A stretch of 38,124 bases of DNA from the IMG/VR virus record IMGVR_UViG_3300010391_000016, positions 1 to 38,124 of that record; one strand, 5' to 3'. The notes under the pieces are model-generated. The model did not search any database. It saw only the letters and a program-made list of their open reading frames with translations, and was not told the DNA's origin. The stretch comes from a virus. The position numbers and the translations under genes are program-made. Below are positions 702-26,324 of the stretch, piece by piece. Position 1 is the first letter of the stretch; the number at the start of each line of letters is the position of its first letter.

Positions 702-2237
702 TTACTGGACTGTGTAACCGGCATCCTTGAATTCCTTTTCCGCCTGCTGCTGCATGATCGCTTTTTGCTTCGCGTAATCCATCACATGTTGATGATTTGC
801 GACCTTCTGCGCGCTGCCAGGAAGTTCCATGTCCAGCGGCTTAAACGCAGAGCCGTAATTCTGATTGACCGTTTTGAGGGTGTTCTCATACCTTGCGCGC
901 GCTCCCTCACCCTGAAGTTTCTGCATCTCCGCCATATCGTTCAGCACGCTCTCCGGGATCGATGCGCCCGTCAGAGCTTTCCCGAGATGCCCTTGCATCT
1001 TCTGCCAGAGAGAGCCGCCACCATAGTTCTGAATTTCGGTCATGTTGATCCGGTGGATGCCTTGGGAGGTGACGAGTTGCAGCGCCCCTTCTTCCGGGAT
1101 CAACTGGTAGGAAACGACATTGCCTTTCCGGGCCGCGTCCATCATGGCGTTGAGCCGTTGCGAGACGGATTGGGCTTGCGCGAACTCTGTACCGGCTTTG
1201 GTCGCTGCATCGGTCGCAGGGCCGATCAGATGTGGCGGGACATTGGCCAGTGCAGCATTCGAACCGCGGGCCGTCGCTGCTTCAATGTTGGCCCGCGCCC
1301 GACCTTCGGCGCTCGCCACGTCCACCTTGTCTTGCTGTGCTTGCTTGCGGCCTTTCTGGGCGGCTTGCCACAAGGTCTGCGCTTCGGGGTCAGTCGGGAT
1401 CTGATCAGGCCCGTACTGCTTGCCCGGGCGGTCCTGGAGTGCCTCTGGGATTCCGCCTTCGCCTTTGATGAGGGTATACTTCGGGCCCAGCGGCTTTGTG
1501 TTCTGGATCGCCTGGTCGAGTTCTTCCGGGGCGACTTGGACATCGTGGTACTGGGCAATGCGCAGGTACTTCAACTTGAGCGCGTCCGGCGAATAAACGT
1601 CCAGCGCGCGGTCTTCGAGATCCTTTTGCAGGTGGTCCATGAGTGTAGACTTTCGAGCGACCATCGGATTGTTGGCAGCCAGGTTCGCCGTCTCTTGGTC
1701 GGTATGCGCAATAGTCGATAGCTGGCCCGTCTGCCCGAGGTGCTCCTTGAAGGCCTGGCTAACTGCTCCCGCTTTCATTTGGGGCATGCCTGTGTCGTAG
1801 GCGCGCTGGGCGGCATCCTGATCCGCCCAGCGGCTGAATATCTTCGCGCCTTGTCCTGGCGTGTGATTGATGTCGCCGCCGAATTCGGCGAGGCCGCCAA
1901 ACATCGTCGCGAGAGCGCGGCGCAGCCCGGCATGCTTTCCGGTGTCGAAGTCACCGACCGGGCGTGGTTGCATGTGGGCCTGAACCGCTTCCGGGTGAGC
2001 CGTGGCGTAGTCGTTGGGATCTTCGTAGGAAGCCGGTTTAGGTGCAGGCGCGACGGGAGCGGCAGGTAGCGGCGAGGGGGTTGCAGACGTCTGCATGGGC
2101 GCTGGCGCAGCTTGCGCAGGGGGTTGAGGAGGTGGGGCCGGTTGGTCAGGGAGCGGCGGCATCATCGCCGCCTGCGGCCCGCCGAAGAGCAGCTTTTGGA
2201 TGGTCTGCGGATCGATTTGTCCGATATTCAGTCCCAT
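702..2237 (-). CDS. Internal virion / ejection-type structural protein (511 aa)
   Basis: This 511-residue protein opens with a short helix-like segment, then a Pro/Ala/Gln-rich disordered stretch (about residues 22-75). The rest is a long, mainly helical, charged region rich in Gln, Ala and Lys, ending in a Lys/Gln-rich helix. No enzyme motif was recognised. Its ATG shares one base with the stop of the upstream Hint-domain gene (TAATG), so translation is probably coupled. Position after the tail genes and before another Ala/Gly-rich protein fits the ejection-protein cluster of podoviruses. It could instead be a tail-needle or baseplate component. The coding call is secure; the role is inferred from order and composition. 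Confidence 0.75.
   Translation of the reverse strand: MGLNIGQIDPQTIQKLLFGGPQAAMMPPLPDQPAPPPQPPAQAAPAPMQTSATPSPLPAAPVAPAPKPASYEDPNDYATAHPEAVQAHMQPRPVGDFDTGKHAGLRRALATMFGGLAEFGGDINHTPGQGAKIFSRWADQDAAQRAYDTGMPQMKAGAVSQAFKEHLGQTGQLSTIAHTDQETANLAANNPMVARKSTLMDHLQKDLEDRALDVYSPDALKLKYLRIAQYHDVQVAPEELDQAIQNTKPLGPKYTLIKGEGGIPEALQDRPGKQYGPDQIPTDPEAQTLWQAAQKGRKQAQQDKVDVASAEGRARANIEAATARGSNAALANVPPHLIGPATDAATKAGTEFAQAQSVSQRLNAMMDAARKGNVVSYQLIPEEGALQLVTSQGIHRINMTEIQNYGGGSLWQKMQGHLGKALTGASIPESVLNDMAEMQKLQGEGARARYENTLKTVNQNYGSAFKPLDMELPGSAQKVANHQHVMDYAKQKAIMQQQAEKEFKDAGYTVQ
2084..2095. repeat. 12-bp palindromic sequence, copy 1
   Basis: CAGACGTCTGCA occurs three times in this window. Here it is flanked by TG, making a perfect 14-bp palindrome. 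It lies inside the 511-residue ejection-type gene, around codons 48-52. Confidence 0.7.
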
Positions 2238-3253
2238 TATTCAAGACTCCAGAAGCCCTCGACGTTGTAGCCGTGCGAGCGCTTCACGCGAAGGAAATAA
2301 CAGACCTGCGCTTCGGGCAATTGATCGACCGCGATGACACTTTCGCGGCCTTCGGTCGTATTGAGCGTTTCGCCGTGCGCCGATCCGGCACAGATATAGC
2401 CGCCGTCCGCGCGGTCGAAGGCGTGCGTCAGCGAGACGCGAACCGTGTGGGCCAGCGTGGCCACATCGCAGACCAGTTGCGGCGCGGTCTGCTCGTTTTC
2501 GACCACTTCATCCCCGACGCCGTCGATGCCGAGCACGATATCGCCGATCTTCAGGAATTCGACTTTACTCCACTCCCCGCCAGGCAGCAGGATCCGCATG
2601 CCAACGGTGATGCACATGGCCACGGCGCCAACCGCGCCTCCGGCTTGCAGACCAGATCCGATGATGCTGCCGAATTGGCTGGGGTGATACTGTCCCGCCG
2701 TGCCGTAGATCTCCGCGCTCGACTTGCCCGACTGCCCGGAGCCCTGCAACGCTCCTGACCCCGTACTGGCGGCATTCCCGCTGGCGATATTCGACGCGTT
2801 CCAGAAATTGTTGAGCGCTTCACTGTGCTGCTTGCCGAGAGCGTCCGAGAATGCGGCGCCGCGCGAGTCGGCGACGTCCGATCCCATCTTCCGCTCCTGG
2901 TCGGCCTGGAAGCCCGAAGGCGTCGAACCCGATCCCATGCCACGGTTCGCCCAGGACTGCGCGAGAGATCCCCGCGCGTTTGTGTAGTCCTTGGCCAGTT
3001 GGTCCGTGCCCTGGTTGTAGGCGGATTTGTAAGCGCCGGACAGGTTCGCATCGTTCAGCTTCGCCGGATCGAGCATGGGAGTCAGAGATCCCGAGGTCGA
3101 TCCCTTCGCGCCCGTGCCGAACAACATTCCCATCAGACGTTGCTGGTAGGCTTGGTTCTGCTTCGACAGCGCCATGTCCTGCGCTGACGCGGCCTGCTGC
3201 GAGTTGTAAGCGCCCGTCGCTTGACCTTGTTTGGCTTGACCGCCTCCGCCCAT
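2237..3253 (-). CDS. Ejection-type virion protein with truncated C-terminal Hint domain
   Basis: The ATG at 3253 follows AAGGA at good spacing. Residues 1-210 are low in hydrophobics and rich in Gly, Ser, Gln and Ala, as in podovirus internal virion proteins, ending in a small Gly/Ala-rich hydrophobic segment. From Cys214 the sequence changes to a Hint (hedgehog/intein) fold: a Cys-led block A with the 'VGxxI...GDIVLG' pattern, then S-L-T-H at 274-277, matching intein block B (TxxH). The protein stops at residue 338, just after the block-F-like GYNV segment, so the terminal His-Asn and the following nucleophile needed for full splicing are missing. N-S acyl shift and N-side cleavage at Cys214 would still be conceivable. 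A second, complete Hint domain lies nearby in the gene at 3905-5050. The domain call is good; activity is unknown. Confidence 0.8.
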   Translation of the reverse strand: MGGGGQAKQGQATGAYNSQQAASAQDMALSKQNQAYQQRLMGMLFGTGAKGSTSGSLTPMLDPAKLNDANLSGAYKSAYNQGTDQLAKDYTNARGSLAQSWANRGMGSGSTPSGFQADQERKMGSDVADSRGAAFSDALGKQHSEALNNFWNASNIASGNAASTGSGALQGSGQSGKSSAEIYGTAGQYHPSQFGSIIGSGLQAGGAVGAVAMCITVGMRILLPGGEWSKVEFLKIGDIVLGIDGVGDEVVENEQTAPQLVCDVATLAHTVRVSLTHAFDRADGGYICAGSAHGETLNTTEGRESVIAVDQLPEAQVCYFLRVKRSHGYNVEGFWSLE

Positions 3254-3254
3254 G

Positions 3255-3668
3255 TTATAGGTCCTTTCCGAAGAACTGTGATCTGCGGTACACGCGCAAC
3301 ATCCCAAAACTCATGGCCAGCTTCTGCATGATCCGGCCCCGGATGGTGCAGAAGTAGGAGTAGATCCCACTGACGTTCTTGCTGCGATCCGCGAGCCACG
3401 CATCCAGTTCGCGGATCAGCAGATAGGTCGCCTTCTGCCGGGCAAAGAGTGGCGCCGTCTTCGAGAAGAGGGGATCGAGCAGAATGGGCTCGATCTGCCA
3501 GATTACGCGCGCCGCCGAGAAGCCGACAATTTCTCCCTGGTATTCCGCCACGAACACAATCGAGTGAGTTAGAAGCTGCTGCTCGAAGTAGCGCCGCTGT
3601 TCATGGAGCATCGAACGTAGAATGAGCAGATCTTCGAGCCGCGCCGGCCTTACCGTGACCTGACTCAT
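3255..3668 (-). CDS. GNAT-like acetyltransferase-fold protein
   Basis: The 137-residue protein has the outline of a small GNAT domain. An N-terminal 'VTVRPARLEDL' strand-helix is followed by a mid-protein 'VFVAEYQGEIVGF' strand pair, then a helical region and a C-terminal aromatic strand. The acetyl-CoA loop (Q/RxxGxG/A) is not clear, so catalysis is doubtful. Several tailed phages encode a GNAT-like protein of this size among virion genes; whether it acts on a protein or is structural is unknown. Its ATG overlaps the stop of the 3665-3901 gene by 4 nt, and its own stop lies 1 nt before the Hint gene start, so it belongs to the late operon. Confidence 0.65.
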   Translation of the reverse strand: MSQVTVRPARLEDLLILRSMLHEQRRYFEQQLLTHSIVFVAEYQGEIVGFSAARVIWQIEPILLDPLFSKTAPLFARQKATYLLIRELDAWLADRSKNVSGIYSYFCTIRGRIMQKLAMSFGMLRVYRRSQFFGKDL

Positions 3669-3901
3669 TTGCTTTTCAATCGTTGGATGTGAGCCTTGGC
3701 CCGATCGCGGGCGTGATGAAGTTTCTCCACTCGCGCCAGGTGCTCGGCAATGTCCTTGTCGATCTCGGCCTCATCGCGGTGCAGCTCGTGAAGGGTCAGC
3801 ACCGATTCTGAGGATGCGTCACCGCAGCAGCGCACTCGCACCGCCAGCAATCCGTCCCCAACTTCTTCCACCGCAACGACTTTGGCTTTGTGTTCGCTCA
3901 T
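3665..3901 (-). CDS. Small coiled-coil protein between tail genes
   Basis: A 78-residue protein. The first 40 residues are beta-like and contain a Cys pair (RVRCCGD). The rest is a charged amphipathic helix of coiled-coil type ending in Lys-rich sequence. Start at ATG 3901 lies 3 nt after the upstream stop without a good ribosome site, so coupled translation is likely. It overlaps the next gene by 4 nt (ATGA). No family recognised; a small virion-assembly or chaperone-like helper is possible. Confidence 0.6.
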   Translation of the reverse strand: MSEHKAKVVAVEEVGDGLLAVRVRCCGDASSESVLTLHELHRDEAEIDKDIAEHLARVEKLHHARDRAKAHIQRLKSK

Positions 3902-3904
3902 GAC

Positions 3905-5050
3905 TTAAGTTTTCATCGTGTTGTGGGCGGTGTAGCCATTGGAGAGTCGGAAGCAGTGCTCGTCGTCGGTTTCACCTTCGCCTTCGATCGAGAGGTTGTA
4001 GACCATGCCCTGGTAGTGCACGACCCGCTCAAAGAGCGCGTCCGCCCGGATCCATTCCAGGCCTTTGCGGAACCGATGTCCTGGCGTCACGAAACAGCCA
4101 TCCGGCATTTCCAGCAGCGGCCCGTCATACTCATGCGAGATGACGCTGAGCACTTTGCGCCAGCCGACTCGCGTCTGCACGAGATCGTCCCCGCCCAGCA
4201 ACTGAGAGATGGCGATATTGCCACGCGGCGTCCAGACTTCGGTTTCCGCCGAAAAGCACCCGCCATTGCCGCCGCCGCCGCAGCCAGTGCCACCGCCGCC
4301 AAAGGCTGGGGTCGTGATGCTGCCCAGATAGAGCCGGTGCAGACCAGCGGTCACGCTCGGGTTGGAAGTGCTTGCGATATACGCCAGCGCGCCGCCCTTT
4401 TCGGTCGGATCGTCGCAGTAGACGTAGTACTTCGTCGAATCGTTGAGCGGCGTGATCGATCCCGAGTTGTAGTTGACTTGGCCGAATGGGTACTGCACGA
4501 CAAAAGCGGCGATGTTGATCGTCGCCTGATTCGCTCCAGCGCCAGTGACCGCCGTCAAAGGCTGCGTGGTCGGCGTGAACGGCTGATTGACCGCATAGTC
4601 CTGCGTGATCTTCGCTGCAACCGGAAACTGACTGGCATCGAACAGCTGTGGGCCAGAAATGAAAACATTCGGCGCCGTCTTTGTCGAGGCCGGTACGGCT
4701 TTCAGCCAGTAGTAGGCCTTCTGCCCGGCAATCGCCTGGTCCGCATCCGAATAGGTGACCGTGATCGGGAATCTCTGCGGAGTCGAGACCAGGGAACTCC
4801 GCGGCCAGATCGCGATGATTTGCGCCGCCCCGATGTCTTGCGAGAAATTCCGCAGCAAGACAAAGGAATCGACGCCTTGCAGCGATGCGACCTGGAAGCT
4901 GATCTGGGCGCCGCGTGTCTTGATATCGGCCCGCGCCAGCAGGTTCGACAGCGGAACCGGCAGCATCCGCCCGCGGCGGTCCAGCCGATCCAGACGATCG
5001 GCCGCCTCATCGAGGGCCGTCGTGACGCCCTTGTTGGTTCCAGCTCTCAT
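3905..5050 (-). CDS. Tail-associated structural protein with complete C-terminal Hint domain
   Basis: Translation starts at ATG 5050, overlapping the nozzle-gene stop (ATGA). Residues 1-250 are mostly beta, with FN3-like segments around residues 45-130, as in tail or baseplate proteins. A Gly/Cys linker (about 251-264) leads to a Hint domain at Cys265-Asn377. It has the block A Cys, the canonical block B T-P-G-H (322-325), a block-F-like 'VYNLSIEG', and terminal His376-Asn377 followed by Thr378. These are all the residues used in protein splicing, yet only four residues (TMKT) follow, so splicing would add almost nothing. At about 113 residues it is small for an intein and fits a bacterial-intein-like or hedgehog-type processing domain. 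N-terminal cleavage or cross-linking is plausible. Domain call strong, outcome inferred. Confidence 0.85.
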   Translation of the reverse strand: MRAGTNKGVTTALDEAADRLDRLDRRGRMLPVPLSNLLARADIKTRGAQISFQVASLQGVDSFVLLRNFSQDIGAAQIIAIWPRSSLVSTPQRFPITVTYSDADQAIAGQKAYYWLKAVPASTKTAPNVFISGPQLFDASQFPVAAKITQDYAVNQPFTPTTQPLTAVTGAGANQATINIAAFVVQYPFGQVNYNSGSITPLNDSTKYYVYCDDPTEKGGALAYIASTSNPSVTAGLHRLYLGSITTPAFGGGGTGCGGGGNGGCFSAETEVWTPRGNIAISQLLGGDDLVQTRVGWRKVLSVISHEYDGPLLEMPDGCFVTPGHRFRKGLEWIRADALFERVVHYQGMVYNLSIEGEGETDDEHCFRLSNGYTAHNTMKT

Positions 5051-8652: not shown

Positions 8653-9099
8653 TTATGGAAGTAAAAGCGTGCAATTGCTGGTGAACCCTTTGGGGACGCT
8701 GCCGGTTGATGGCAGACAGGTCAGGGTGATTTTGGTCGGGAATACAGCGTCTTTCCCGGGAGGTCCCGCCGCTCCGGGTTGGCCGTCTTTTCCGTCCATG
8801 CCCGGAGGCCCTACTATCCCTGCTTGACCGTCTTTGCCGTCCACACCGTTGTTCCCGGCTATGCCTGGGTCGCCCTTGTCGCCCTTCAGTGGCAGTGGAT
8901 TTCCGAACGGAGCGCCGGCGATCGAGACGTGCACGCCATCATTGGCAAAGCACAAGCCGGTCTGATGTGCGACCTGGTCCGGTACGCATAGCGATGGATC
9001 GATCGGGCCGCCCTGCATCGGACCCAGGTAGATGATCTGTGCCGCAGCCGGAAGCGAAAGCGCGACAGCGATCAGGACAACGGAAAGAGCAGATTTCAT
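8653..9099 (-). CDS. Exported collagen-like protein
   Basis: A Sec-type signal peptide (Lys at residue 3, hydrophobic core about 5-17, cleavage after Ala20 leaving Gln) is followed by a short Cys-containing domain. Residues 73-117 hold fifteen uninterrupted Gly-X-Y triplets (for example GPPGMDGKDGQPG). A C-terminal beta-like segment contains two Cys. Collagen-like triple helices occur in phage tail fibres as trimeric rods, but those lack signal peptides. Here the protein would be exported, so it may be a host-surface or late-assembled fibre. Its ATG overlaps the stop of the 9096-9632 gene (ATGA). Gene and repeat are certain, location inferred. Confidence 0.8.
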   Translation of the reverse strand: MKSALSVVLIAVALSLPAAAQIIYLGPMQGGPIDPSLCVPDQVAHQTGLCFANDGVHVSIAGAPFGNPLPLKGDKGDPGIAGNNGVDGKDGQAGIVGPPGMDGKDGQPGAAGPPGKDAVFPTKITLTCLPSTGSVPKGFTSNCTLLLP

Positions 9100-21571: not shown

Positions 21572-24500
21572 TTAGTCGGTGTAAGGTCCACTGCCGCAAG
21601 AGCCTTCACATACGTAGAGTGCCCTTGTCTGTGCCGCGTCCAACTTGGCAAAGTCCACGCCCAGCATCGTCCCATCTGTCGCCATTGTGTTCATCGGGTT
21701 GCTGGAGTGCAGCTTTAGCTGGTGGATGTCGAACGATCCCCCGGGCGGCGACTGCATCGGGCAAGCTGTAATGTCGAACAACTGGCAATCCGTCGAAGGG
21801 AATGCCGTGCCGCTCATGTAGCCCTGGAACCCGGCACAATCCGGCACTCCGTTGGTGCTGGTCACGGTTCCACTGGGGCAGGTCACAGCCGGAGGAACGC
21901 AATTGCCCGGCACGGTGCCGCTTGGGCAAATCGTTGAGCCGCTCAATCCGACCGCCGTGTACTTTGCCGCGCGCGCCGTGGTCGGCAGCAAGAAGGCGTT
22001 GTGGTGAATTTGGAGCGTGGTCTGATCCCACGCCTTGTATCCCCCGGAAGAGGCTTCTCCACCTACGTTCAGGGCACACCAGCCGCATCCGTTCGGGCCG
22101 AAGTAGAAAATATTGTTGTAGTAAGCCTGGTTTTGCATCTGGCCTAAGTAATCTTTTTGGCGCGCCCACATCTTGCCGACGTTGGTGGAAACTATCGTCG
22201 TGTGCTGCATGATGAGATTCTTCTGCCATCCTGAAGCGTTGTCGGTCGTGCAGATCACTCCCGAACTAACATCTGGCAGGCCGGCCTGACCAATCGTGTA
22301 ATAGAACGAATTGGATCCGGGATCGGTGGGAGTAACCGCCAAGGGCTGCGTTAGTACCGGCTGCACGGGCGTGTTGAAACTCGTGTCCGAGCAGTTGTAG
22401 ACGCGGATGATGTCGCCTTGCGAAATGTCCAGGTACTGGAAGGCGATAGTCGCGAAGGTCACATTCGCAGGCCCGCAGCCCGGGGGAGAAGTGGTGACGT
22501 TACTGCCTGTGCCGCTGCACAGCTTTCCGCCGTTCGGAGCGTCGGCAAAAGGCGTCCCCAGAGTACAAGCCACGTCGCGACAGCCGAGTTTCGGACAAGC
22601 CGAAGTTCCACTCACCCCGCAGTTCGAGCAAATCGCTCCCAACGTAAACCCGTCCGAGTCTCCAATTCCACCGCCACAGAGCGGCTTGTACGTGCCCGCG
22701 GCTGCAACCGTGCAGGGCAGAACGGTGCAGTCTGTCCCGATTGCCTGCATGGCACCGTATTCCGTACCTTCCGTGCCAGTACCCAGACACCCAGGAATCT
22801 TGTCGCATCCCAGAGTTGTTACTCCGCCATTGAATGGATCTTCCTGCTGGCCGCCGAACTTCACGCTCACCGTTCCAGCCAGCATGTCGAGTTCGTTGTA
22901 TGGTTTTGGATTGATGACTGCCGGGTCGCAAGTGAGTTTGGCTTTGCCGCTGGTGCGGGTCGCCTGGCAGGACGTGTACGCGGCGGACGTGCCCATACCC
23001 GAATCGACCCACTGCGCTCCCAGACTGCCGCCCCACTGCGTCTGATCGAAGCCGTAAACCAAGTCGTTTTTGAAGAGGATGTAATTCTCGCCCTGGGATT
23101 GCCCTCCGCCGTTCCCGGTACTCCCGGACCGTGCCCGATCGCCAGTCATCGAGGCCGCATTGCGAATGATGCTGTTTGTGAAGCGCAGGTTATTGGTTCG
23201 GATGATGGGGATGTTGCTCGCGTCGAAGACGGCGCAGGCGGAGCCGCCCGAACAAACGGACGGCGTAATCAGCAGGGCATAGCCGACCTGCCCGTCCGGC
23301 CAAGTGTCCTCGATGATACAACCGTCGCACATCAGCCGGTCTGCCGTTTTTAGCTCAAACGAATTCTTGATGGCCCAACTAAACGGGCAAGTATTTCCGC
23401 CCACGAAGTTGTTGCATCCGTTTGCAGGTGATCCGGGAGAATGCCCTGCAGATCCAGTCAGGGCACGCCAGCCTGCATCGCGCGTCAGTCGTCCCCGGCG
23501 CATTTCGACGTCAGTCAGAATGCCGACGCTCGGCGTAATGTTTGCCCCGGATACGAAAAACCCCTGACTGCCGCCTTCGATCCAAAAGTCCACTATTTTG
23601 GACGGTCCGTTGGCGAGACCTGTGCCGTCACCGCCTCCGACACAATGGCCTTCCGAGTTGAACCAGTGGCAGCGATTGACCAGGAAGTGCTCCATCCAGC
23701 AATCCGAGCAGTTGTCCTTGATTGCGCTTTGGACGTCATCGCCACAGCCGTTCGCGTACTGTGCGGGCGGAGTCCCAGCGCCACGCAAAGCCCACATCTG
23801 GCAAGCGCCCGCCGGCTGATGGTCCCAGCCGCGCGATCCCGATCCGTTCGGCTCCGGGTCCCAGCCGTGGGCGTAAAACCGTTCACTGCCGCAGTGGGCG
23901 CAGATGCGGTTCCAGAGCCGGAAACTATCGGCGCAATTTGCTCCAGCGCACACCGAACCAGGTCCGCCGATGGACTGGTTGATCCCGGGCAGCATGGTCA
24001 CTTCATAGTCTTTGTAGACGGTGTTGTTCCCGCCCTGGAAGACGACGGACGATCCGCTCGACGTGTTGATCGCGTCTGCCCGGAAGTAGTACATCGACGG
24101 CAGATCGTTCGTGCAGTCGGGATTCCGGGTTGCTGCACCGGAGATCAGGTCGGCATCGCTCCAGCCATGGTTGCAGGGAATGCGGCTTTGTAAAGGCGTG
24201 CTCGACTGCACCACGAAGTAGCCGGTACCGGGAGTAGCCTTGACGGGCGCACAGTAAAGCGCCGTGTTGCTGTTGCAGTTGTAAGTCGCGCCGTTGAGCA
24301 GGGAGCCAGCGGCGATTTCGACTTGCATGTACCAGTTGGTCGCCAGCCCAACCCACTCTGCCCCGGCGCTGGTCAGTCCTGCGAAGGTGGCCGGGTAATC
24401 GTTCGTGCCGAAACCTAGTTGCCGTTTTTTGCAGAGGTTCGCATCGTTGCAGGTTGCCGGGAGATTTGGATGGGCTGCATTTCCGCCCTGATTACCGTCC

Positions 24501-25216
24501 ACCCAGTTCTGCGGCTCCAGTGCCGTTACTGGGCCGGAGCCTGCGGCAAGAATCTGAATTGAAAATGCCGCCGTAGCCGAGACGGGCTGTGTATCGGTGA
24601 CTTGCACTGTGAAGTTGTAGGTTGCAGGCGTACTCGGAAAGCCAGAGAGCGTTCCCGCAGAAGTCAGCGTCAAGCCGGTTGGAATCGAGCCAACCGTGAC
24701 CGTCCAGGAATAGGCCGGAATGCCCCCGGAGGCATTGAAATTGTAGAAGTAATAGGTCTGCTGCACCGAGGGCGAGACTGGCGCCGGACTGGTCAGCACT
24801 GTCAGTGTTGGCGGAGGCGCGGCTTGCGCGGTCTGCTGGAACGTCTTCGTGGTCGCGTTGCCGGCGGAATCCTGCACCTGAATCGTAAACGTCGCCGTGC
24901 CGCTGTCGTTCGAGCACTGGCCGGAAAGAACCCCCACGGATGAGAGGGACAGGCCCGGTTGCAAAGCCCCCGAGAATAGAGACCACGTGTAAGGCTGTAC
25001 GCCGCCGGTCACGTTGAAGGTGTAGCTGAAATTGGTCGAAATAGTGCAGTTCGGTAAGGATGATGGATCGGTGATGGCTAGGACGGCAGTCGGCGTGTCG
25101 ATCACCAGACTGCCCTGCTGCACCAGGCCGCCCGAATACGAGATTTGTGCGCTAGTTGCGACCGAGGCAGTGATAATCAACCACGTCAGTCGCGCCAGCC
25201 GTCGTGAAAGTGACAC
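21572..25216 (-). CDS. Exported Ig-like plus parallel beta-helix protein (about 1214 aa)
   Basis: I start at GTG 25216, preceded by GGGG; ATG 25264 is also in frame. A short basic N-terminus and a hydrophobic stretch ending 'VATSAQ' form a signal peptide. Two putative Ig (He_PIG-type) repeats follow at about residues 45-130 and 140-225, with the 'GVQPYTWSL...GLSLSSVGVLSG' and 'GIPAYSWTV...GLTLTSAGTLSG' patterns. From about 390 to 720 there are right-handed beta-helix coils ('IVDFWIEGGSQGFFVSG', 'AIKNSFELKTADRLM', 'NLRFTNSIIRN'), then Cys-rich beta sequence. This domain pair is one I associate with secreted proteins of Acidobacteriota. In a phage it could be a tailspike or glycan-degrading surface protein. 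It overlaps the previous gene by 65 nt. Confidence 0.8.
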   Translation of the reverse strand: MSLSRRLARLTWLIITASVATSAQISYSGGLVQQGSLVIDTPTAVLAITDPSSLPNCTISTNFSYTFNVTGGVQPYTWSLFSGALQPGLSLSSVGVLSGQCSNDSGTATFTIQVQDSAGNATTKTFQQTAQAAPPPTLTVLTSPAPVSPSVQQTYYFYNFNASGGIPAYSWTVTVGSIPTGLTLTSAGTLSGFPSTPATYNFTVQVTDTQPVSATAAFSIQILAAGSGPVTALEPQNWVDGNQGGNAAHPNLPATCNDANLCKKRQLGFGTNDYPATFAGLTSAGAEWVGLATNWYMQVEIAAGSLLNGATYNCNSNTALYCAPVKATPGTGYFVVQSSTPLQSRIPCNHGWSDADLISGAATRNPDCTNDLPSMYYFRADAINTSSGSSVVFQGGNNTVYKDYEVTMLPGINQSIGGPGSVCAGANCADSFRLWNRICAHCGSERFYAHGWDPEPNGSGSRGWDHQPAGACQMWALRGAGTPPAQYANGCGDDVQSAIKDNCSDCWMEHFLVNRCHWFNSEGHCVGGGDGTGLANGPSKIVDFWIEGGSQGFFVSGANITPSVGILTDVEMRRGRLTRDAGWRALTGSAGHSPGSPANGCNNFVGGNTCPFSWAIKNSFELKTADRLMCDGCIIEDTWPDGQVGYALLITPSVCSGGSACAVFDASNIPIIRTNNLRFTNSIIRNAASMTGDRARSGSTGNGGGQSQGENYILFKNDLVYGFDQTQWGGSLGAQWVDSGMGTSAAYTSCQATRTSGKAKLTCDPAVINPKPYNELDMLAGTVSVKFGGQQEDPFNGGVTTLGCDKIPGCLGTGTEGTEYGAMQAIGTDCTVLPCTVAAAGTYKPLCGGGIGDSDGFTLGAICSNCGVSGTSACPKLGCRDVACTLGTPFADAPNGGKLCSGTGSNVTTSPPGCGPANVTFATIAFQYLDISQGDIIRVYNCSDTSFNTPVQPVLTQPLAVTPTDPGSNSFYYTIGQAGLPDVSSGVICTTDNASGWQKNLIMQHTTIVSTNVGKMWARQKDYLGQMQNQAYYNNIFYFGPNGCGWCALNVGGEASSGGYKAWDQTTLQIHHNAFLLPTTARAAKYTAVGLSGSTICPSGTVPGNCVPPAVTCPSGTVTSTNGVPDCAGFQGYMSGTAFPSTDCQLFDITACPMQSPPGGSFDIHQLKLHSSNPMNTMATDGTMLGVDFAKLDAAQTRALYVCEGSCGSGPYTD

Positions 25217-26324
25217 TCGTTGTCCCCGAATAAGTGATTTTGACCGCTGCGATCGATGTCTCATCGGACGCCGTACAGGTTGGATGTGAAGAGTAGGTGC
25301 CGGTGAACGTGTAAGTTGCCGTACCGCCACTCATGGTGAGAGTTCCATCGAGATCGGAGTTGCCAGCGATACCGCTGCCGAGCGACTTCGTTGATCCTGA
25401 ACCGATCACACAAGACCCATTCTGCTTACAGTTGAGAACGTCGGCGCCGGTGTTGTCCTGGATCTTGCCACAGCTATCGGTGGCCGCTGCTCCCGCCGGA
25501 CACTTCGCCGTAATCGGAACCACGCTAGTCGCCGTTGGCTGGATGGTGTTTGTGACGGTCAACGCGGGATTCGTGACGACCGCATTGGCGGACCCGCCGC
25601 CACCGCCCCCAGATCCGCCGAGTTGCAACTGAACCCAGCAACCGGGTGCCGCATTACAGCCCGAAGGCAGAGCGCCAGCCGGAGTCAGGATCAACTGCCC
25701 GATCTGGTTCGCTCCCTGTGTCGCTCCGGCATCCGACGCCAGGCCCGCCGTCGCAGAGATCTCCACGAAATGCCCGACAGTTGCTGCGGCATTGTCGAAG
25801 ATCACTTGGACCTGGCCGCCAGTGGCAACTGCTACCGTCCCGGTAGTCGCGCAGTTCGCGACAGCCACGCCAATGATTGAGCTCTCGCCACCGACTGTCT
25901 GTACAGCCTTGCCGTTGAATCCGACGCCCGTGGTGTCGATCTTCGCCAGGTTGTTGCAGACGGTTCCCGATGGCGAGTTTAGGTAGTAGTTCGTGATCGT
26001 GGAATAGCCGAGGAGTAAATTGCCGCCCAAAAGCTCCAGCGTGCCGGAGTACGTTCCGCTGGGCCAGAGTCCGAAGGTGTTCTTTCGCAGGTCGATGATG
26101 ACGATCCCGTTCGGGTTGGTGAACGTCTCGCTCGGGAAGGGGTAGTCCGCGGGAATGATCACCATCCCGCCGACGCCGGCGCGAGTGATCGCGTTCTGGA
26201 TGTTCGACTTGTGCGTGAACTGGACCGGCTGCGCCTCGTTGCCAACGACGACGATGTTGGCATTCGACGGATTCTGCGCCCAGGACGCCATCGCGAACAT
26301 CAGCACCACAAGAATCGTTTTCAT
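25152..26324 (-). CDS. Exported tail-fibre/spike-like protein (390 aa)
   Basis: ATG 26324 directly follows the upstream stop (TAAATG). Signal peptide MKTILVVLMFAMASWAQ leaves Gln. The N-terminal 'IQNAITRAGVGGMVIIPADYP' segment and following strands resemble the start of phage tailspike or pectate-lyase-type helices. After residue 120 it is Gly/Ala/Thr-rich beta sequence with a poly-Gly linker near residue 240 (GGSGGGGGG). The C-terminal 55 residues are paralogous to those of the 154-residue protein at 21082-21546. A fibre- or spike-like surface protein is likely; its export is unusual for a virion part. Confidence 0.75.
   Translation of the reverse strand: MKTILVVLMFAMASWAQNPSNANIVVVGNEAQPVQFTHKSNIQNAITRAGVGGMVIIPADYPFPSETFTNPNGIVIIDLRKNTFGLWPSGTYSGTLELLGGNLLLGYSTITNYYLNSPSGTVCNNLAKIDTTGVGFNGKAVQTVGGESSIIGVAVANCATTGTVAVATGGQVQVIFDNAAATVGHFVEISATAGLASDAGATQGANQIGQLILTPAGALPSGCNAAPGCWVQLQLGGSGGGGGGSANAVVTNPALTVTNTIQPTATSVVPITAKCPAGAAATDSCGKIQDNTGADVLNCKQNGSCVIGSGSTKSLGSGIAGNSDLDGTLTMSGGTATYTFTGTYSSHPTCTASDETSIAAVKITYSGTTSVTFTTAGATDVVDYHCLGRN

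Follow-up and report, generated by a model that had tools for sequence, protein, structure and literature searches.

Inteins are usually regarded as parasitic. Among the related bacterial-intein-like (BIL) domains, the A type has been described as lacking an obligatory nucleophile at the +1 position, directly behind the domain, and as sitting in variable proteins (PMC7765530, PMC4031507); A-type domains cleave or ligate without a +1 nucleophile (PMC4031507). We analyzed the IMG/VR virus record IMGVR_UViG_3300010391_000016, a stretch of 38,124 bases (the window), in which two neighboring virion-type proteins, P1 (381 amino acids [aa]) and P2 (338 aa), each end in a Hint domain; sequence stretches of relatives that we compared with the window carry L-numbers. 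On balance, residue conservation and structural models lead us to favor the reading that the two proteins carry different C-terminal Hint self-processing domains, each of which would act in cis without needing the other.

Two different Hint domains

P1 consists of a head of ~150 residues, a beta module of ~95 residues, a Gly-rich linker, and the Hint domain. We confirmed the open reading frame (ORF) and the residues listed in the initial annotation: Cys265 at Hint position 1 (Cys1), TPGH at 322-325, and His376-Asn377-Thr378, with exactly four residues (TMKT) behind Asn377. Its best Pfam matches, Vint (E=1.2e-5, residues 264-369; 25.6 bits versus a gathering cutoff of 27) and Hint_2 (E=4.5e-4; 21.1 bits versus 28.4), fall below the cutoffs. 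The AlphaFold model (predicted local distance difference test [pLDDT] score of 64.5) matched the gp41-1 intein, a C. thermocellum BIL domain, Tetrahymena BIL2, and Vint with Foldseek probabilities of 0.99-1.00, and VIA-align gave Z 8.1 over 99 residues against inteins and BIL domains. The beta module is a well-modeled part of the protein and shows weak fold matches to phage receptor-binding and tail-fiber proteins.

P2 carries Cys214 and an SxxH motif (SLTH, S274...H277), has no His-Asn, and ends in GFWSLE. By itself it gave a weak Pfam match (E=0.039) and a marginal score of 5 bits with another profile. In tblastn searches of 50,697 phage records, neither P2 (P0002) nor its L046 and L048 orthologues had a match; P2 as sole query also found nothing in viral contigs or in 396 Acidobacteriota genomes. 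We reached the orthologues through the neighboring 648-aa protein, which led to L046 (51% identity), and from there through a two-row alignment to L048. The L046 orthologue matches Pfam Hint_2 from residue 214, the same Cys (E=1.2e-4; 22.9 bits versus the cutoff of 28.4), and a profile built from both orthologues recovers window P2 at E=1.7e-9. The top Foldseek matches of the P2 model (pLDDT 68.6) are all inteins or BIL domains, 15 of them at E<0.001 (best, 3e-5); VIA-align gave Z 10.3 for intein/BIL structures and Z 8.4 for hedgehog (1at0).

Both C-terminal domains thus combine the horseshoe fold, as modeled and matched by Foldseek and VIA-align to inteins, BIL domains, and hedgehog, with Cys at position 1 (C265 and C214), and on these grounds each is assigned to the Hint superfamily. 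The initial annotation had proposed Hint domains at the ends of neighboring structural proteins; profile searches and fold comparisons agree, since both models returned the Hint fold (P1, Foldseek probability 1.00; P2, E=3e-5). It had also stated that the two domains differ in sequence and are not a fresh duplication. They do differ strongly, and we dropped recent duplication as their origin.

The P2 domain is not truncated

From the lack of His-Asn, which we confirmed, the initial annotation had concluded that P2 stops short of it. All three P2 orthologues (window, L046, and L048) keep Cys1, SxxH (SLTH, SVSH, and SRKH), the block F Tyr, and the terminus [FI]WSL[EI], with Leu-Glu or Leu-Ile at the block G position in place of His-Asn, while the Hint domains of window and L046 share only 30% identity. 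In each of these phages, which come from different metagenomes, the P2 stop overlaps or abuts the start of the next gene. The conserved end and this tight junction argue that His-Asn was replaced rather than cut off. A frameshift or assembly artifact that removed block G would also yield a C terminus without the expected His-Asn, but matching ends and junctions in three phages make this explanation almost certainly wrong. With no His-Asn, the predicted chemistry of P2 is at most an N-terminal acyl shift.

A module-Hint cassette in phage tail proteins

Searches for P1 relatives returned proteins that all share the beta module. In most of them a Gly-rich linker leads from the module to a Hint-like domain at the C terminus; L014, L015, and L018-L020 have the module without such a domain. 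One P1-type carrier is a prophage in an Acidobacteriaceae assembly (L006, identical to L025), with 56% identity over module and Hint. Both parts also occur in lambda-J-like tip proteins (J-type), about 1,400-2,500 aa long, from Microbulbifer phages among others. Tail-region "hypothetical proteins" of the jumbo phages PhiXhv-15 (XYR93251.1), XacN1 (ORF231), and LucasX (LUCX_306), all cultured, and an unannotated ORF of phage DLP_6 end in the same C-terminal domain but lack the module. Judged by these sequences, the module and Hint domain form a cassette that recurs in unrelated phages. A tblastn search with P1 (P0001) against the 50,697 phage records gave no match, and the main text of the XacN1 virion proteomics paper does not mention ORF231.

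Two observations concern the gene content of these relatives. The DLP_6 ORF, at the start of the Stenotrophomonas phage record (L039:3-1655), is an open frame of ~550 codons with a Hint-like end that is unannotated in GenBank. Xanthomonas phage PhiXhv-15 (L038:4423-4842) and Erwinia phage Ep032 (L050:3420-3842) encode a stand-alone Hint relative of 139-140 aa right downstream of a complete Hint protein; these stand-alone relatives are degenerate, without Cys1 or His-Asn (J-type hidden Markov model [HMM] E=7e-11 in L038).

We collected 25 Hint domains ending in His-Asn, which are not independent but form roughly ten groups. Cys1 is kept in all 25, and 3-8 residues follow the Asn. Every one of these tails contains a Lys, most often as xxxKP, against a background of 37% of proteins with a Lys in the last five residues. 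The motif TP[GP]H is kept in P1, L006, L022, and L042, and 14 diverse J-type domains share ten invariant columns, including Cys1 and His-Asn. The +1 residue is a hydroxyl residue in only 2 of the 25 (Thr in P1, Ser in L023); it is Leu in the nearest relative of P1, whereas Gly, Ile, Ala, Val, Pro, Asn, or Gln occurs elsewhere.

Because +1 is not conserved, Thr378 of P1 appears to be incidental. In crediting P1 with all splicing residues, the initial annotation overstated the case: a +1 nucleophile is not a feature of the family. Cys265, TPGH, His-Asn, and Thr at +1 are all present and would suit a canonical intein, with Thr378 serving to splice TMKT to the tail protein. We consider this quite improbable, given the free variation at +1, the lack of a homing endonuclease or a sizeable downstream extein (3-8 residues), and the ends of the Hint-less orthologues, which lie far upstream of the Hint domain and not at a seam.

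The two Hint domains segregate among relatives

In L046 and L048, the P1 orthologues (154 and 134 aa) have no Hint domain and end ahead of the module, where the cassette begins, while the P2 orthologues keep theirs. L006/L025 shows the reverse: the P1-type protein has a Hint domain, and a 230-aa protein at the P2 position (its likeness to P2 is limited to position and composition, with a BLAST E of 2.2) has none. So far, the window alone has both. This segregation argues that the two domains are not mutually dependent. By the same distribution, the P2 Hint looks like the older domain, kept vertically in this lineage, and the P1 Hint like an acquired cassette.

The initial annotation had suggested that the pair works in trans, processing or cross-linking the tail with one domain as enzyme and the other as substrate. 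The genes do lie close together, and their domains differ exactly in the presence or absence of His-Asn; PhiXhv-15 and Ep032, where a degenerate stand-alone Hint follows a complete Hint protein, offer a parallel. However, each domain is kept where its supposed partner is missing, and within the stretches examined, L046 and L048 have no second Hint of any kind. Unsplit Hints of the intein type act on the sequences that flank them, and neither domain here is half of a split one. The segregation does not support an enzyme-substrate pair, which we regard as very improbable.

Proposed self-processing in cis

If the two domains act separately on their own proteins, as we favor, Cys214 of P2, together with S274/H277, would activate the peptide bond 213|214 through an N-to-S acyl shift. 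Since P2 has neither a C-terminal Asn nor any sequence behind the domain, water or an external nucleophile would resolve the thioester, and the ejection-type N-terminal part would be released (or transferred) from the Hint domain, following the logic of hedgehog proteins and B-type BIL domains. In P1, A-type BIL chemistry (the same acyl shift, at Cys265, plus cyclization of Asn377) would set free the tail protein's Gly-rich end, with or without the short Lys-carrying tail ligated to it. These reactions would accompany virion assembly or entry.

Several points weigh against this proposal. The block B His is missing from the J-type Hints (SxxTP), and part of the family may therefore be inactive or perform C-terminal chemistry alone. 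J-type Hints have no Pfam match either, and their assignment therefore rests on position, Cys1/His-Asn, and a hit of the P2-family HMM to one of them, the Hint of L023 (E=9e-4). Profile-profile comparison of P1-type, J-type, and P2 Hints found no significant link. Overall model confidence is middling for both proteins; the last 15 residues of P2 have pLDDT <50, so that placing Leu-Glu over His-Asn rests on the sequence alignment. The known P2 orthologues number only three.

The missing His-Asn of P2 and the missing block B His of J-type relatives could also mean that catalysis was lost and that the domains are kept as folded structural or folding-aid C termini. Phage fibers can carry C-terminal chaperone domains, and the stand-alone Hint of PhiXhv-15 persists despite loss of Cys1 and His-Asn. 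Yet every Hint attached to a structural protein here has kept Cys1, and all P1- and J-type domains have kept His-Asn, while the rest of the sequence has diverged to about 30%. Retention of precisely these residues is not expected from structural use alone; we rate a purely structural role as unlikely, though it keeps some weight.

A more speculative idea, which we think improbable, is that the Hint thioester serves as an acyl-transfer warhead, which upon contact or in the course of assembly would covalently link the C-terminal Gly or Ala of the tail or ejection protein to an amine. Candidate amines would be the Lys of the His-Asn tails, a neighboring subunit, or a host-surface amine; if so, tail tips would be covalently cross-linked or fibers covalently fixed to the cell.

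Genomic context

Genes on the minus strand have a T7-like arrangement, in which those for the terminase large subunit, portal, and major head protein are followed by the gene of a 648-aa protein that weakly matches an internal virion protein in PHROG, and then by P1, the 78-aa gene, the GNAT-like gene, P2, and a gene of 511 aa. Judged by gene order rather than homology, P1 is a presumptive tail protein and P2 appears to occupy the slot of a T7 gp14-like ejection protein. The features are listed in Table 1.

Table 1. Positions of P1, P2, their parts, and the intervening genes in the window
Feature	Position	Strand	Remarks
P1 ORF, 381 aa	3905-5050	minus	ORF confirmed
P1 residues 1-149, tail-protein head	4604..5050	minus	L046 and L048 orthologues consist of the head part alone
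P1 residues ~154-250, beta module	4301..4591	minus	Recurs in other phage proteins, lambda-J-like tips among them (identity mostly 44-58%)
P1 residues 251-264, Gly-rich linker directly ahead of Cys265	4259..4300	minus	Precedes Cys1 in most relatives too
P1 Hint domain, Cys265 to Asn377	3920..4258	minus	Blocks A CFSAETEV, B TPGH, F VYNLSIEG...HCF, G NGYTAHN
P1 C-terminal tail TMKT	3908..3919	minus	Lys-containing tails of 3-8 residues behind His-Asn in 25/25 Hint domains
78-aa gene immediately after P1	3665..3901	minus	51% identical relative immediately after the P1-type gene of L006
GNAT-like (acetyltransferase-like) gene, 137 aa, between P1 and P2	3258..3668	minus	53% identical in L046
P2 ORF, 338 aa	2237-3253	minus	ORF confirmed
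P2 residues 1-213, Ala/Gly/Ser/Gln-rich	2615..3253	minus	45% identity to L046 orthologue
P2 Hint domain, Cys214 to Glu338	2240..2614	minus	SLTH (274-277), RSHGYN, end GFWSLE where block G normally has His-Asn

In L048, a gene that by eye resembles a DNA methyltransferase (3640-4511) lies between the P1 orthologue and the GNAT-like gene, pointing to gene insertion at that spot. Elsewhere in the window, also on the minus strand, a 148-aa protein among the structural genes (8653-9099) begins with a signal-peptide-like segment and contains a collagen-like repeat of the form Gly-X-Y (Pfam Collagen, E=2.5e-8), and a 1252-aa protein (21572-25330) that has no match in PHROG contains two putative Ig stretches of the He_PIG family (E=2.8e-17).

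Comparison with described systems

Phage Hint proteins are already known as annotations: fold searches list several entries from uncultured Caudovirales named "Hint domain containing protein," and those of tailed phages (BFVD entries such as A0A6J5KSY2 and A0A8S5MW95) are, like the ones described here, phage proteins with Hint domains. In the open-access literature, we found no paper on C-terminal Hint domains of phage tail or ejection proteins and no account of the function of annotated phage Hints, the module cassette, or a P2 type without His-Asn. The new details are the conserved Hint without His-Asn on an ejection-type protein and the mobile module-BIL cassette. That two types of Hint occur on virion-type proteins, keep their catalytic residues despite large sequence divergence, and show no mobile-intein features suggests that phages employ Hint chemistry in maturing or attaching parts of the virion. 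This idea could be tested directly in cultured jumbo phages with tail-region proteins that end in Hint domains of this kind, and the P2 family provides a hedgehog-like domain on an ejection-type phage protein that is small and open to testing.

Among known families, Vint (PF14623) and Hint_2 (PF13403) give the best matches of P1 and the L046 P2 orthologue, with scores below the gathering cutoffs. By motifs and model, P1 resembles an A-type BIL domain rather than a canonical intein: it has the Hint fold, Cys1, TxxH, and a C-terminal His-Asn (H376-N377), and its relatives have no obligatory Cys, Ser, or Thr at +1. It departs from that type in its place at the extreme C terminus of phage tail proteins, its tail of 3-8 residues with a Lys, and its frequent association with the beta module. 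P2 is hedgehog-like or B-type-BIL-like in its motifs and predicted fold. Like B-type domains, it keeps blocks A and B, with an N-terminal Cys, and lacks the block G His-Asn (a likeness drawn from motifs), but the protein ends exactly with the Hint domain, at a conserved WSL[EI] terminus. Like the hedgehog Hog-Hint, the P2 Hint is C-terminal, has no terminal Asn, and matches 1at0 in fold; unlike it, P2 has low sequence identity and nothing behind the Hint domain that could be a sterol-recognition region, and for the latter reason we do not file it as a Hog protein.

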